Assembly (NCBI RefSeq): GCF_025399195.1
Contig: NW_026252122.1
Coordinates: 62,001 to 126,000 of the forward strand
Length of the DNA: 64,000 nt
Reading direction: 5' to 3'
Origin: Umbelopsis ramanniana AG
Taxonomy: Eukaryota > Mucoromycota > Umbelopsidomycetes > Umbelopsidales > Umbelopsidaceae
Each line of letters starts with the position of its first letter. Position 1 is the first letter of the stretch. The notes beneath the pieces are model-generated. The model was not told where the DNA came from. It did no database searches and saw only the letters and a list, made by a program, of their open reading frames with translations. The position numbers and the translations under genes were made by a program. Shown in pieces: positions 35,462 to 63,224 of the stretch.

Positions 35462-37088
35462 TCAAGAAGTAGTGGTGTCCTTGTAACAAACGGCGTTCCA
35501 AAGCAGTAGATTCTCAACACTAACAAGCTGACGATGGGCATAGTTATTGTTGGAGGCTTGTAGACATGTGTAGTCTGCAACGCCTAATTTTGCCACATCC
35601 CAAAACACGATATTGGGCAAGTCTTGCAATTCATCCTTGATCAATTCAGCAAACAGTTGACTGCGTCCAGCGCTCCAGCCAGTTCCTTGCAACACCGCAC
35701 CTGCGAATTGTCGAGGTGTTCGAATGACGATACGTTGCGTTGGATAAGCTTCCTTCAGCGCCTTGGCGAAAGGGATAAGGGCGTCTTTGAAAGCTTGTGG
35801 CTCAACATGAAGGGACGCAATATCAAGATTACCAAGTGAGAAGATCACCAGATCAGCTTGAGGTAGTTTTTCTGTCGATTCTGCAAAACGAGTAGTCCAA
35901 TCTGATCCAGTGATAGTGCCGGCTTGCAAGATATGTAATTGGGTATCAACTTGCCAAGAGCTGTTAAAGTGAACAGGGACTAGGGGATCTTGCATCCAGT
36001 TAAACGTGTCAAAGGCTTCTCCATCATCATTGCAAATGCATTCGCCTTTTTCTGCGTCGCACCATCTATCGGCTGTAGCAATAGATTTGAGGTTACGTCG
36101 AACATGACCGTCTCCCCATACATGAACGGTCTTCTTATCAAGGCAGCGGGTTCCCTGGCCAATGCTGGTATATTCCAGACGACACCAATCCGGCACAAAT
36201 AGATAATCATGTAAAGCATGATCTTCTTGGATTTCATCAAACATGCCATAAAAATCAAATGGATAGAGGGTTTGATATTTCGTCTTTTTGATCCATCTTC
36301 CGTTCAATGACTCGGGGTTCGCAGGATTACAGGTAGGTAACTTTGTAACGTTGAAATCGGGAGCGGTGACATGAACACGGTTTGAGGATTCAAAATTGAT
36401 GGGTTTATATGGATGGCGAGATGGTTGTAACCAAAAGTGAGATCGATGTTCGACCGTATGCTTGAGGTGGTATATATCAGGATGGGGGAAGTAAGCTGAT
36501 CCATAGTATAAATTATTAGCTCTGTAATGTTGCTTCAGCTCGATAGGATATCGGATGGTGGTGCTAATAGCGTAGGTAAGGATGCTGTCAGGGGGGCTGA
36601 GATTAGAAGATACAAAGTGAGGGGTCAAGGCAGGTGTTAGAGGTAACTAGAAATTGAATGGGCTTGGTTTAGTATTAAGACCGATGGGTGCGCGCCATGT
36701 CCCCCTCATTGCTTACCAAAACAACCACACAAACAGAATCCCCAGCAGATATATCGAGCTCTGGTAACGTCAGCGAGCCATCCCTAGCTACTATGAAAGA
36801 TTTGTACGATGCACCATCCCATACTGCCCTATCGTCTCGTCTAATCGCCAGTATGAGTGTCTGATGCATTATTATCATATACAGGCTGTTTATGGTCACT
36901 TACATGGAATCAAAGTTCACCCCATCGCAAGCAGATCGGAAGCTGATTTCGTCAGATGACAAGAGAGAGTTGGATTGATTCAAACTGGGAGGAGTGGTTG
37001 ACCGCTTAGATAAGAAATATATGGATAGAATTAGGGTGATGGAAATGAGAGCCAGAGCTCGCGTGAGCGATCCTCTGGCCGCCAACAT
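35462..37088 (-). CDS. PC-esterase/Cas1-like type II membrane protein
   Basis: Exons 36904-37088, 36717-36840 and 35462-36646 give 497 aa. An N-terminal signal anchor (ALALISITLILSIYFL) precedes a luminal domain. Blocks: CRLEYTSIGQGTRCLDKKTV, then VWGDGHVRRNLKSI. The last string lines up with block I of the PC-esterase/NXPE/Cas1 families, usually GDSxxR, but here the Ser position is Gly. ADLVIFSLGNLDIASLHVEP is the family's middle block. The C-terminus ends in ENLLLWNAVCYKD and shows no DxxH. Members acylate or de-acylate cell-surface glycans in the Golgi. The missing catalytic residues suggest a divergent or non-catalytic protein. Confidence 0.78.
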
Positions 37089-38145
37089 AGTACTTGTGGA
37101 TATCAGGGAGTAAAACGGGAACAAGCTCTGCTGCTCTATCGATCCACACCATTTTTTCCAAGACAGCACTAAAAGCTTATCTGTCAAGTCAGAGTCACGT
37201 GCACGAATCAAGAACCACCCAATTTTTAGGGCCATCCATTCGGCTGTGTGTAACATTACATTTTTTCACCTTCAGTCGAAGCGGATATTGCACGTTTTTT
37301 ATTGCAACCTTTGGGGAAATTTTACCCGCTGCAGCGACGGCATCCAAAGGTAAATCACAGTGGGGTAAAGTTGCAATATAATAGATAGATTGTAGTTGTA
37401 GCAAGAGAATGTCCAAGTTGCTGGCATTAAGGATATACTCTATAATCAATGTCCGAATGTATAGTGAACGAAATAAATATTCGACGGATGAACATAGCAC
37501 CGATTGAGGACCAAGATAAAATGAAGCAATACAGATGCGTTCACATCGTTGGATGGTCGTTGTCCAAACTTGTTATTGATTTGAATGAACACACCAGCAT
37601 GTAAGCGTCAATACAACAACACAACCTTTATAAGTATCAATTAAACCACTGGTAGATCAAAAGTATCGCTGCTGTTATTTTTCAGTATAATTTTGTTCTT
37701 TTATCATATCTATTTATTAGTACACGGGCATGCCTCAGGTTGATGATATCCCACTAATTTCATATCAACATCGCAAGCTTTCGTTTGGCAAAGATTTGGC
37801 TTAGGGTAGGTGCAGTGTAAAAATAGCAGGTAATAAAGAAGAGTTATGTGACCGCCAACCAAAGTGCTTTTAGTATGAATTTACCATAGATCGAGGGAGT
37901 CTCTTTCTTGACTGTACCCTTCAATGTCCTCTACCTTCTTTCTGCTGTATGGCTCATCAGCCATGGCTTCAAGCAAAGAGTGATTTCATGAGGCTGGGGA
38001 TGGGTTCAATGAAGCTGTGCAACAGCAATGATTTAAAAATAGGCAGGCTGGCGGGATTCAAAGTCCGAGTAGCAGGACTCAATATCAATTTGGTCAAGGT
38101 TTTCGCCTCTCTTTTTCATACTCTCTCCATCTTGTTATTAGGCAA
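37089..38145. other. Divergent intergenic region
   Basis: About 1.06 kb between the PC-esterase-like gene (-) and the repeat protein gene (+), so it carries two promoters. CACGTG occurs near 37196. No supported gene. Confidence 0.45.
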
Positions 38146-40849
38146 ATGAAGTTTGGCACGTCAAAGTTGCTCATCTCGGCAGCTGTTGCAATTGCCTTTC
38201 CCTCCTTGTCAAATGCTTCTCCCTTCTTTTCACATTTGAATGACGCATCTACTGACGACTTGTCTCAGAAATGCTCAGGTACTTTACCAGTTCCCGGTCT
38301 CATGTCCCCAGCCATTTATCCAACCACCGCCATTAACAACCTATCTTCCTCTAGATTTCCAAATCACGTCGCCTTCGTCCACTGCAGGTATATAGCACTA
38401 CGAATTTTATATGTCTATTACGCGTTGGAGAAAGCGATGGTTTTTTTTTAGGGTGTTTGTTTTCGATCCCTAATGCGCAGCTCCTTCGCTTCGCCACACT
38501 TGAGCCCGTTACGCTAACCGCCCGTCATTTATTATCTAGCCGTCGACTGGACACCGGGAAGCTTGCAAACGATCTCTTGGGAAGCACCCTCCTCCTATTC
38601 CTCTGTGTCCATTGCTCTCCTTGACTCTAATAACCAAACCATCTCGGACTTTGGAACTTATGGTAATGAAATTTTTTGCCAATCATAAATCCTGTGCACT
38701 CTGTCCCTTGCTAAAATTGGAAATCTAGATGCCTCTCAGGGTAATACAGGCCAGAAAGAAATTTCTCTTCAAGGTCATCCCAGTGGTCTTTATCACTTGA
38801 AGTTCACTGCCTTGAAAGCAGATGGCGAGTGTGAAATCGACTCCAATCCCATTCAAATCTCTGCTAGCAACAGTGCTCCCAGCACCAACGATTTGGACGA
38901 TATCTTCAGTAAATTAGATGGAAACCAGAATACAAACGATTCACCCACTACGCCTCCCTCCAACCAAGAGTTGGACGATATCTTCAACGACCTATACAAC
39001 CACGGCAACGACGAAGGTTGGCACGTCGATGAAGATGATATTGAAGACAACGACGTTCCTTCCACCGTCTCTGGTTGGCACTCAAATGAAGACGATGTCG
39101 AAGAGATTGATTTCTCTGGCTGGCACTCAAATGAGGACGATGTTGAAGAAAATGAAACACCTGCCTTCGGCCACAGTGACGCCATTACAGATCTTGTGAA
39201 TGACGTTGAAAACAGTGATCTCACCGGCTGGCACTCAAACGAAGACGATGTCGAAGAGAATGAACCCTCAGGCTGGCACTCAGACGATGCTGAAGAGAAT
39301 GGAACACCTACCTTCGGTCACAGCGACGCCATTTCAGATCTTGTCAATGATATTGAGAACAACGATGTCTCTGGATGGCACACCAACGAAGATGATGTTG
39401 AAAACGATACTAACAGCGGTGAACCTCAAACCTTTGAAGAATTGATTGAGGTAAGACATGGCAAGAAAAAATACTTTTTTTTTTTCCGCTTTTCGTGCAT
39501 AGACGCTTGCATCAACTTGAAGCTAATCAAATGCCGTTACCTCTTCATTATAGTCACTTGACCAGCCTTATGAGCAATACTTGGACAACAATAGCGCTAC
39601 TGAAAATCAACCTCTGACCACGCACAAGAATGATGCCGATGTTGGTGGTGACGACTGGACAACCGAAGATGATGACAACAGCGGTGACAGCGATATTTCT
39701 TCACAACTCGATGAAATCTTCAGCAAACTCGCCGGCAATGAGCAACCTACCACCGCCGACGACGTTCATACTGATCTTCACTGGAACTCTGAAGATGATA
39801 CATACTTTACTGACGAGTACAACGGCGTTCCCTCCGTTGAGGACACCAGTGACCATAGTGATGCTGGTTGGCATGAAGATGATGTCGAAACCCCCACCAC
39901 CGATATTCACAGCGACGATGATGCTCACTCCAAGTGGGTCGGCGATGGCACCGCCAATGCTGACCATAACGATGAAACTCCCAGCACATGGTTCACAGAA
40001 GATCACTCCGATGAGGTTCCTTCCACTGGCGAAAACGATGCTACTCCCAACAAGTGGTTCACTGATGTTCACAATGACGAAGTGGTCCCTCCTATCGTTG
40101 ACGATGTTCCCGGTGTCCACGCTGATGAAGTTGAAATTCCTAGTGCCGATGATGGTAACAGCAAGTGGTTTACTGATGTCCACAATGACGAAGTGGTCCC
40201 TCCTATCATTGATGACGTTCCCGGTATCCACGCTGATGAAGTTGAAATTCCTGGTGCCGATGCTGATAACAGCAAGTGGTTTACTGATGTCCACAATGAC
40301 GAAGTTGTTCCTCCTATCACGGATGACGTTCCTGGTGTCCACGCTGATGAAGTTGAAGTTCCTGGCTTCCATGCTGATGACGATAACAGCAAGTGGTTCA
40401 CCGACGATGTCCACAATGATGAAGTTCCTGGCTTCCATGCCGATGACGATAACAGCAAGTGGTTCACCGATGATGTCCACAACGATGAAGTTGAAGTTCC
40501 TGGTGCCGCTGACGATAACAGCAAGTGGTTCACTGATGCCCACAATGACGAAGTGGTCCCTCCTGTTGTCGATGATGTTCCTGGTATCCATGCCGACGAT
40601 ATTGAAGTTAACAACTGGTTCACCGATGTCCACAATGACGAAGTCGGTACTCCTGACACTGAAGTTCATGCTAATGATGATAGCAGCAAGTGGTTCACCG
40701 ATGTCCACAATGATGAAGTCGTTCCTCCTGTCACGGGTGAAATTCCTGGTGTTCATGCTGATGATGCCAAGTGGTTCACTGATGAACGTGTTGATGACGA
40801 AGTCCCACAAGCGCACGGTAACGATGCTGAGAGGTGGTTTTCAAACTAA
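38146..40849 (+). CDS. Secreted Kre9/Knh-like protein with long acidic Trp/His repeats
   Basis: Five exons (38146-38278, 38355-38387 of 33 nt, 38540-38662, 38729-39450, 39554-40849) give 768 aa. A signal peptide (about 1-24, ending SLSNA) is followed by a Kre9/Knh-type Ig-like domain: DFQITSPSSTAAVDWTPGSL, QTISWEAPSS, VSIALLDSNNQTI, and GLYHLKFTAL. The rest is acidic repeat sequence in two styles. Residues about 165-300 carry six copies of GWHSNEDDVEEN-like units; a seventh, shortened one follows the last intron. Residues about 480-768 carry ten units around KWFTDVHNDEVVPP. There is no C-terminal GPI signal (it ends ERWFSN). In yeast, Kre9/Knh1 act in beta-1,6-glucan assembly; the repeat part has no family known to me. 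Metal or wall binding is a guess from the Asp/Glu/His content. Confidence 0.85.
39016..39410 (+). repeat. Coding repeats of the GWHSNEDDVEE type
   Basis: Six units of roughly 10-12 codons at irregular spacing (GWHVDEDDIEDN, GWHSNEDDVEEI, GWHSNEDDVEEN twice, GWHSDDAEEN, GWHTNEDDVEN), with two interleaved copies of FGHSDAI(T/S)DLVND. Confidence 0.85.
39980..40846 (+). repeat. Coding tandem repeats of the KWFTDVHNDEV type
   Basis: About ten units, the full ones 37-39 codons: SKWFTDVHNDEVVPP, then a variable I/V-x-DDVPG, then HADEVE(I/V)PG. Middle units are shortened, and the last is degenerate. Neighbouring units are nearly identical in DNA, so recent duplication is likely. Confidence 0.88.
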
Positions 40850-41420
40850 GCATGTAACCCATCATAGAGCGCTCGTCACCGCATATCCTCACTAAACGGT
40901 TTCAGGTCCTTTCCCTTTTATAAAACGACGACATACCCATCATTGAACCTTTTGTATTTCTTGCTTACGGCAAGGTTTGACACATTCTGTTGTACTTTTC
41001 AACTCCCCCTCTGCTCTACCATATCTTTTTTCTTACAAAGAAAAAAAAAAGAAACCTATTTCTTCTCTTCTTTCTTAAGAATGCCCTATCACTTGTTTGA
41101 TTTTTGTATCAATAAATGTCTTGACAGGCTTTTGGCTCTGTTCAAAAAAAAAAAGGACGAAAATTCGGGTAGCTTTGATTTGGTCATTACAACGTATGAA
41201 GGTGGTACGGACGAAGTAGTGTCTGTCTGTAAAAGTGTTGATCTGGTTCGACCGTTGTGGCACAAACATGTCTACATCATCTTGGCAAGGCTCGAACCTG
41301 GCCCATGAAGTTGCGCTATATCCTCACATACTATCGAGGTATACCTGCCTGGCCCTCGCCTCTTTTTCCATTCGCCACCCCGATGTGTGTGCTACTTACA
41401 CCACACCACCACTGAATGGG

Positions 41421-61265: not shown

Positions 61266-61705
61266 TAATTCGTCTCCCTTTTTTCGTAGAATTGTTTCCC
61301 ACGCTACCCTCGTCAATACTTGTAAAAAAAAAAATATAGTCATATATCATCACAGCTTGAACATAAATGATATGCTCGATATTTTATCCTTGTGGTGTCT
61401 AGGCATGTCATGTTTGGGGATTACTATGCGGTGGGTTTCAAGAGTGGACCAGTAAAAATTCAAGCGTACAGTATAAATAAAAACAGTATCTTGAGTGAGG
61501 GAACCAATCCTGGTGGGTGAATTTAAAGATCACACCATAAGCAGCTGATAAGTCTAAAGGGTGCTGAGAGATCGCCTCGCATGCAGTCCCGTGAGTCAGT
61601 CAGATGGCCAAAATTGGGGGAAGATAAGACTCATGACGGGCCAGGCAAGAACTCCTTTAAAAGCTCAGCGCACGTCTTCTCATACAAACAATTGTTCTTT
61701 TTATT
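61266..61705. promoter_or_regulatory. Rho GEF 3' flank and subtilase promoter
   Basis: A TATA-like TTTAAAA at about 61656-61662 lies about 45 bp upstream of the subtilase ATG. An A-run at about 61324 and AATAAA near 61475 belong to the 3' end of the GEF gene. Confidence 0.5.
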
Positions 61706-63224
61706 ATGAAGTTGTCTCTACTCACCTCAGCTCTTTTGTTGGCTGGATATGCCGCCGCCGCTCCTTTCCATACCACATCTCCCACCCTGGCTCCTTTGTA
61801 CACTAGCACAGAAACAGATACCATCCCAGAATCATATATTGTTGTATTGAAGGACCATGTTGACGAAGCAAGAGCTGCTGCCCATTGCGGCTGGGTCAAC
61901 TCTTTCCATAATGATGATGCTGTGGCTACTTCTCTCCTAGACCCAACCGTCGCAGCTGGTATCAAGCACACGTTTAATCTTCCCACCGTTGCTGGCTACA
62001 CCGGAAAGTTCAGCGACCTCACACTTGAACGCATTCGTTCGTCTCCTGATGTAGGTATCCTTTCTTTTACCGTACTATGGTGTTTTGGACCTTTTTCATT
62101 TACCTTGAGGTTCAATAGGTTGCCTATGTCGAGCGGGACTCTATGGTCTATGCCTCTGAGCTTCAACGAAATGCGCCATGGGGCTTGGCCCGTATCTCTC
62201 ACAGGGAACCTTTGAGTTTGAAAACATTCTCAAAGTACTCATATGACCCAGAGGGCGGTGAAGGAGTTAAGGTTTATGTTATCGACACCGGTATCAATGT
62301 GGAGCATGTTGACTTTAACGGTCGTGCTACATGGGGTGCCACTATTCCCGATAACGATGAGGACGAAGACGGTAATGGGCACGGTTCTCACTGCGCTGGT
62401 ACAATTGCTGGCAAACGGTACGGCGTTGCAAAGAAGGCTAACCCAGTGGCTGTCAAGGTGCTTCGCAGTAGTGGCTCAGGTACCATGTCTGACGTAGTCA
62501 AGGGCGTTGATTGGTCAGTGGAACAACATAAGCTGGATGAGTCTAAAGCCGCCAAGGCTGGTAAGAAATACAAGGGTGCTGTTGCCAACATGAGTCTTGG
62601 TGGTGGCAAGTCAAGAGCTTTGGATGCTGCCGTCGATGGGGTAAGTGATCATTCCTTCATCTCTCTCCAGTGTCTTATTTTATGTTTATGAACCAATTTC
62701 GTCGTCTTGTTAGGCTGTGGAAGAAGGCGTTTTCTTTGCCGTCGCTGCTGGTAATGATAACCGTGATGCCTGTGACTACTCTCCAGCTGCATCAGCAAAT
62801 GCTCTTACTGTGGGTGCTTCCACCGTGGATGACGATCGCGCGTACTTCTCAAACTACGGCAAGTGCGTTGACGTATTTGCTCCTGGTCTCAACATCCAAA
62901 GTATCTACAGAGGTAGTAAATACGCTACTGCCACTTTGAGTGGTACCTCCATGGCATCGTACGTATATTCACAGTAAAACCACCCCCACCCTGCTCCTAA
63001 GCCGAAACATGTGTTAACATCCTTCATCTCTTAGTCCTCATGTTGCCGGTCTTGCAGCTTACTTCCTCAGCTTGAGTGAGGTTGAGTTGACGGCCAAGGA
63101 ACTCAAGGAGAAGATTCTCGAATTAGCCACCGAGGGTGTGTTCGAATCACTTCCCAAGGACACTCCAAACTTGCTCATTTTCAATGATGCCACCACTGAC
63201 GAGGAAGATCAATTGTACAAGTAA
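61706..63224 (+). CDS. Cerevisin/proteinase B-like subtilisin (S8A)
   Basis: Exons 61706-62050, 62119-62640, 62714-62958 and 63035-63224 give 433 aa. A signal peptide (about 1-19, AGYAAAA) is followed by an I9 propeptide (ESYIVVLKDHVDEARAAAH and VAYVERDSMVYA). The mature S8A domain has its catalytic Asp in VYVIDTGIN (about 170), His in NGHGSHCAGTIAG (about 203) and Ser in LSGTSMASPHVAG (about 367). The Ser motif is split by intron 3. AVANMSLGGG carries the substrate-binding region and FAVAAGNDN the oxyanion Asn. Vacuolar or secreted; yeast Prb1 also serves as processing protease. All catalytic residues are present. The TATA-like promoter suggests regulated expression. Confidence 0.95.

Follow-up and report, generated by a model that had tools for sequence, protein, structure and literature searches.

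The window, a 64,000-nucleotide stretch of DNA on a contig (C36) of a 22.8-Mb, 123-contig assembly that matches Umbelopsis ramanniana AG (Umbelopsidales, Mucoromycotina), carries at 38146–40849 on the forward strand a five-exon gene for a putatively secreted protein with an Ig-like head and a long, acidic, repetitive tail. All five exons share a single frame, giving 768 aa and a stop codon, and the four introns, of 76, 152, 66, and 103 bases, all have GT–AG boundaries. The gene is organized as follows:

38146–38278, forward: exon 1, with the start codon, the signal peptide, a short 'SHLNDAS' motif, and Cys43
38146–38217, forward: predicted signal peptide, approximately residues 1–24, within exon 1
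38278–38865, forward: predicted Ig-like beta-sandwich head, residues 45–142, split by introns 1–3 (from AlphaFold2, fold comparison, and alignment)
38355–38387, forward: exon 2, 33 bases, encoding the first Ig-like strand, '..DFQITSPSSTA'
38540–38662, forward: exon 3, continuing the Ig-like domain
38729–39450, forward: exon 4, with the end of the Ig-like domain (at about 38865, with Cys131), a linker, the type A repeats, and the first part of the conserved linker motif
39016–39405, forward: type A repeats (GWHSNEDDVE-like), residues 193–322
39430–39637, forward: conserved linker 'TFEELIESLDQPYEQYLDNNSATENQPLTTHKNDA', split by intron 4 (39451–39553)
39554–40849, forward: exon 5, with the remaining linker, mixed units, and the type B repeats; stop codon at 40847
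39986–40804, forward: type B repeats, ten [KTN]WFT[DE] units with a KWFTDVHNDEV core, residues 482–754, predicted to be disordered

The five-exon structure proposed in a first-pass annotation of this DNA is borne out by the in-frame joins, by the GT–AG introns, and by the public model K450DRAFT_245903 (P0001), which coincides with it at all four exon junctions; the joining of the short exon 2 is further supported by the similar 'CxDFRITYP' carried by Mucorales relatives. P0001, annotated as a hypothetical protein, is identical to the window protein over residues 1–514. Within the repeats, a false intron in the public model joins one repeat to the equivalent place in the next, near-identical unit; the last common codon is at 40082, reading is out of frame by 40200, and the final 233 residues of P0001 are spurious. 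The protein of Umbelopsis sp. AD052 (P0002) retains the main frame to its end and has the same C-terminus, AERWFSN, as the window protein, and the main frame also runs through repeats of this same type in the protein of Umbelopsis sp. WA50703 (P0023). The start of P0002 seems to be wrong, as its N-terminus resembles an intron-spanning frame of the window (ISKSRRLRPLQVYSTTNF...). Two further open frames lie over the repeat DNA, one of 425 codons on the forward strand (39618–40895) and one of 379 codons on the reverse strand (39701–40840); because two Umbelopsis relatives keep the main frame, these are probably by-products of stop-free repeats.

The ends of the protein agree with the earlier proposal that it is secreted and lacks a GPI signal. 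The N-terminus is signal-peptide-like, with a maximum 15-residue hydropathy of 2.04, against a best 15-mer of −0.23 in the last 40 residues, where hydropathy reveals no GPI-type C-terminus; in seven relatives the best C-terminal values range from −1.38 to 0.08, by the same measure. An 'HLNDAS'-like motif occurs at the same place in most relatives with a complete start. The whole window protein contains just two cysteines, Cys43 directly before the head and Cys131 inside it.

The Ig-type fold that had been placed after the signal peptide is recovered by AlphaFold2, run on P0001, whose sequence here does not differ from that of the window protein, with block pLDDT values of 77–94 over residues 41–140, and the head is the sole part of the protein predicted to be stably folded. 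The Kre9/Knh label that the first-pass annotation gave to this domain is weakly supported. The beta-sandwich expected of PF10342 (Kre9_KNH) is present in the predicted head, but this fold is too common to prove membership. PF10342 matches three of ten trimmed family heads (best E 0.0023, presumably below the 24.6-bit cut-off), the largest number of heads matched by any Pfam family, and a profile–profile comparison of the family heads with nine Umbelopsis KNH domains gives a local match over 32 columns (E 0.0021, probability 13%) with a shared 'G...I.W..P....I.L' pattern. Against this, PF10342 is unmatched in the 768-aa protein and in its first 161 residues at E ≤ 10, and in ten full-length relatives at E ≤ 1; an exon-by-exon search of reduced sensitivity places it above cut-off at 11 other places in the assembly, not at this gene; and the KRE9 C-terminal domain (PF05390) is unmatched in the window protein at E ≤ 10. 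The N-terminal domain of Kre9/Knh proteins also sits after a signal peptide, but it is followed by a Ser/Thr-rich GPI stalk where the window protein has its acidic tail, and the family-wide Cys pair and 'KHxxAW' are not seen in the nine aligned Umbelopsis KNH domains. Elsewhere, the matches of the window head alone are all short or weak, with Ika8/Tako8 proteins at the top (approximately 31–35 residues); it reaches E 0.06 with Pfam CopC (14.8 bits, cut-off 23.3), and the head-family profile has no match among PDB sequences at E ≤ 10. A fold match to GbpA was rejected as a guide to function, as the match list is full of Ig-like folds.

The protein belongs to a family. Relatives at E ≤ 0.01 numbered 5 with the full protein, 22 with the repeats masked, and 20 in a third search, or 23 distinct proteins overall, from word-limited searches that each scored approximately 8000 candidates sharing the most words. 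All named relatives (all but P0021 and P0022) come from Umbelopsis (ramanniana, isabellina, AD052, and WA50703) or from the Mucorales, namely Rhizopus (microsporus, arrhizus, and delemar), Backusella (two, one of them partial), Radiomyces, Apophysomyces, Blakeslea, and Parasitella; being drawn from word-limited searches, this is weak evidence for a restriction to Mucoromycotina. The fuller models share a signal peptide, an HxNDAS-like motif, an Ig-like head with a Cys pair, a linker with the consensus 'FxxYIxSLDQDYxKYIxKNKETExxxVTHKNDA' (in short, 'SLDQxYxxY...HKNDA'), and an acidic Trp/His tail. All of the defining parts (signal peptide, Cys-pair head, linker, and H-x-[N/D] tail) are present in the window protein, and one or more are missing or shortened in P0002, P0003, P0016, P0020, P0021, P0022, and P0023. 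No paralogue was found in the genome with the head or with part of the tail as query. The Radiomyces spectabilis protein P0016 apparently has two tandem Ig-like heads and a helical-looking run, 'HLNDQELDxIxxxIKH', before the usual linker.

The proposal that the protein falls in no named family holds as far as Pfam and NCBIfam go, in which no credible family was found for the window protein and its relatives; the protein is no orphan, however, given its 23 relatives. PF25408 (AAA_lid_NAV1) scores well above cut-off on the window protein (E 1e-11, 45.1 bits against 27) and is also precomputed on P0002, yet it was rejected as a false match: of the 115 profile positions the best stretch spans 29, on type B residues 531–559, and no ATPase domain was found. 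In the Apophysomyces relative, Hydrolase_6 (PF13344) exceeds its cut-off at residues 416–446 and looks spurious. PF27079 is precomputed on the Radiomyces protein P0016 and was not listed by our own Pfam scan of the same protein, and the Rhizopus microsporus relative is labelled 'GOLD domain-containing' by one source, while the Pfam scan found no GOLD domain there. NCBIfam gave a single match among four relatives, at E 0.015 and far below cut-off. Over-threshold hits such as PF25408 and PF13344 could mislead automatic annotation, and together with the false intron between repeats they provide an example of annotation failing on repeat genes. No paper on the family was found in open-licence PMC text, judged by title or the start of the abstract. 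As far as could be searched, the family is undescribed and without an agreed name, with a new motif and architecture within the broad kind of secreted fungal repeat protein.

The tail comprises 618 aa from residue 151, with 29% Asp/Glu, 5.7% His, 3.4% Trp, 2.3% Lys/Arg, and no Cys, and its calculated charge is approximately −164 at pH 7.4, −133 at pH 5.5, and −90 at pH 4.5; eleven other tails range from −58 to −173 at pH 7.4. Seven GWH units, five of which fit GWHx[ND]EDD[VI]E, and ten [KTN]WFT[DE] units confirm the approximately 600 acidic residues in two styles of Trp/His repeat noted at first pass, and Tandem Repeats Finder places arrays at 39076–39402 and inside 40051–40554. The regular spacing of Trp and His that had also been described applies above all to His, which is highly regular as H-x-[N/D]; that of Trp is secondary. 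Asn or Asp stands at +2 of 34 of the 35 His residues of the window tail, where 9.8 were expected and 500 shuffles reached at most 17, so the pattern is not due to chance. These 34 residues comprise 25 Asp and 9 Asn, and in each of nine other tails Asn makes up at least half of the +2 N/D residues.

The same coupling extends across the family. In ten tails, taken at approximately one per species from 24 sequences (the window protein and its 23 relatives; P0005, which has an odd end, was limited to 400 tail residues), 315 of 366 His residues have N/D at +2, compared with 88 expected (z 28, 200 shuffles), with a range per protein from 26/36 to 34/35. In the other open frames of at least 180 codons in the window, which are uncurated and serve as a rough control, the figure is 26 of 193. 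Also enriched after His are Ala at +4 (z 12), Trp at +4 (z 7) and +6 (z 11), and acidic residues at +3 (z 12), and acidic residues are depleted at +1 (z −4.4), +4 (z −5.7), and +6 (z −3.8). With H, N, A, and W falling on even positions, parts of this spacing would fit an amphipathic strand. The pattern is incomplete: acidic residues are avoided at +1, hardly enriched at +5 (z 1.8), and, after Trp, enriched at both +3 (z 12.4) and +4 (z 7.7). The tail itself is predicted to be intrinsically disordered. AlphaFold2 on exon 5 (12 sequences) gave a mean pLDDT of 42.8, with 368 of 431 residues below 50, two short helices, and no tail strand. In the run on P0001, two short helices are predicted in the linker, at residues 332–339 (block pLDDT 74) and 344–351 (block pLDDT 57). 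Umbelopsis type A GWHSNEDDVE has a look-alike in Backusella, EWHSNEIDVE; part of the repeat chemistry may predate the split of Umbelopsidales and Mucorales, or the two may have converged.

The cores of the units differ mainly at synonymous sites. Among eight of the ten type B cores, 85 synonymous and 14 nonsynonymous pairwise differences give a dN/dS of 0.017, and among five of the seven GWH (type A) cores, 35.5 and 19.5 differences give 0.034, with dS near saturation; the deviant type B units at residues 482 and 743 and two GWH units were excluded, and both values are biased low because the units were picked for resemblance in the core. With wider units the ratio is higher, at 0.31 (two units of 37 residues) and 0.20 (three pieces of 32 residues). 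When the tails of U. ramanniana and Umbelopsis sp. AD052 are aligned, identical residues amount to 18/19 Trp, 28/30 His, and 33/33 Pro, compared with 79/95 Asp and 7/19 Ile, leaving out gapped residues (2 Trp, 4 His, 2 Pro, 16 Asp, and 0 Ile). Ten Rhizopus arrhizus/delemar proteins vary in length from 510 to 592 aa and carry 7–10 H.[ND].AEW units, a variation that may be due in part to errors of assembly or gene model.

The HxNDA-coding pattern CAYNNNAAYGAYGCN occurs at 87 places in the 22.8-Mb genome, against 46 for a reversed control, and three of the 87 lie inside this gene. At 82 of the 84 other places no comparable array was found in frames read from stop to stop, mostly in 2.5-kb stretches with introns ignored, and the richest frames were one of 416 codons, counting 5 of 23 His, and one of 579 codons, counting 5 of 20. 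Arrays elsewhere do not account for the twofold excess relative to the control, and, since no similar array appeared among the frames read, nothing here suggests that the motif serves as a general signal for secretion or the wall.

On the grounds of secretion, charge, disorder, and motif spacing, we tentatively favour a role as a polyanionic sticker tail that binds the chitosan-rich wall, with the Ig-like head as its folded end. We consider this possible, though short of probable; wall location, chitosan binding, and the geometry of a bound strand are what we infer. The protein would be a secreted, non-GPI component of the wall or extracellular matrix in Mucoromycotina, in which the H-x-[N/D]-[D/E] motifs, often followed by Ala (+4) and Trp (+4 or +6), could act as weak, multiple stickers. 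If the tail were drawn out as a strand, one face would carry positions 0, 2, 4, and 6 (His, Asn/Asp, Ala or Trp, and Trp) and the opposite face the +3 acid; the His/Asn/Trp face might stack against sugar rings while nearby acids pair with protonated glucosamine, and the tail could in this way hold and cross-bridge chitosan. The best fit would be expected under mildly acidic conditions, with chitosan positively charged and many carboxylates yet to lose their negative charge. It is a doubtful further step to regard the H-x-[N/D]-[D/E]-A-x-W array as a dedicated, undescribed chitosan-gripping motif that forms a pH-tuned complex, with the family being structural in the chitosan-rich walls of Mucoromycotina; if true, a disordered polyanion bearing dozens of copies would be comparable in principle to the chitin–protein coacervates of animal cuticle. 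In arthropod cuticle proteins with the Rebers–Riddiford consensus, alternating residues are thought to offer an aromatic face to chitin, and the histidine-rich proteins of squid beak coacervate in chitin; the likeness is in working, and no homology is claimed.

Published work bears on chitosan binding from both sides. According to the passages of PMC11437000, Mucorales walls are built mainly on chitin and chitosan, and in R. delemar proteins are lodged in the chitin/chitosan layer; no such structural protein is named in these passages. The same passages give isoleucine, not Trp or His, as the contact residue and describe the chitosan amines of R. delemar as mainly unprotonated, which weakens the electrostatic model; if electrostatics were insufficient, Trp stacking or metal bridging would count for more. 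Cryptococcus has been grouped with Mucoromycotina as chitosan-rich (PMC5872309), and the lack of a Cryptococcus relative among the matches of the word-limited protein searches counts against chitosan binding. The protein, of which a single copy was found in this genome, belongs to a strongly acidic, secreted repeat family known from Umbelopsis and Mucorales and is a concrete wall-protein candidate; chitosan binding, if real, would partly explain the cohesion of a glucan-poor wall.

The main rival to chitosan binding is the binding of divalent metals, in which each H-x-[N/D]-[D/E] would offer one imidazole and one or two carboxylates and many Zn, Cu, Mn, or Ca ions would cross-link the tail as a binder or store at the wall; we rate it as unlikely, yet it would make the protein an unusual Cys-free metal sink. 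In its favour, N/D at +2 and acid at +3 follow His far more often than in shuffles, the His–Asn/Asp spacing could resemble a metal-binding motif, the tail is without Cys, and the head weakly matches CopC, though far under the cut-off. However, 225 of the 366 residues at +2 are Asn, which in general ligates metals poorly, metal binding leaves the Trp spacing unexplained, and we know of no metal motif that fits H-x-[N/D]-[D/E]. What keeps metal binding strong as a rival is BAD-1 of Blastomyces, a secreted fungal repeat protein held on chitin, whose repeats are stated in the passages of PMC3708853 to bind Ca, Zn, and Cu. By the description given there, BAD-1 resembles the window protein in being secreted with long tandem repeats, a conserved Trp, and a repeat number that varies from strain to strain; binding of divalent cations by the repeats, and retention of the released protein on chitin by another domain, are described for BAD-1 alone. 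Cys pairs, WxxWxxW, and a folded loop of 17 residues characterize the BAD-1 repeats, in contrast to the Cys-free, predicted disordered H-x-[N/D] tail, and the window protein has an N-terminal Ig-like head, unlike BAD-1, and no EGF match in the Pfam scan.

A role as an adhesin or surface coat, in which the tail would touch plant, bacterial, or mineral surfaces and change length by repeat slippage, is improbable: the protein lacks a GPI signal and any known adhesin domain, tandem-repeat genes commonly vary in repeat number, and the fold match reflects an Ig-like arrangement that is widespread, many unrelated rows lying within 1–2 Z units. Less credit still is due to a true Kre9/Knh relative working in beta-glucan assembly, for which the three matched heads and the 32-column profile match speak; the missing PF10342 and PF05390 matches weigh against it, as do the confinement of PF05390 homologues to Ascomycota among the fungi analysed in PMC5872309 and the statement there that Mucoromycotina are without many glucan-remodelling enzymes. 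The assembly nevertheless has 11 Kre9_KNH places. The least credible alternative, which we rejected, is a precursor of repeated secreted peptides cut by Kex2; the protein is secreted and its tandem units have near-identical cores, but dibasic sites are missing between the repeats (the window protein has none after residue 150, and the relatives have 0 to 5 apiece, out of step with the units), and a conserved Ig head and linker would be unexpected.

A gene-cluster reading was likewise rejected: 19 of 31 listed open reading frames were scanned, and the 13 with Pfam hits are all ordinary (SNF2, DUF4078, TAF4, ELMO, a weak GDSL lipase, 60KD_IMP, Beta-Casp, GRAM, TBC, DEP, PH/CNH, I9 inhibitor, and subtilase). 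The divergent upstream neighbour (35465–36646, reverse strand) matches GDSL lipase/acylhydrolase weakly (PF13472, 22.4 bits, under cut-off) and is a possible wall-polymer-modifying enzyme; a frame at 36900–37265 on the reverse strand is perhaps its membrane-anchor exon. At 61661–62688 on the forward strand, a subtilase with an I9 propeptide is spread over two overlapping open reading frames.
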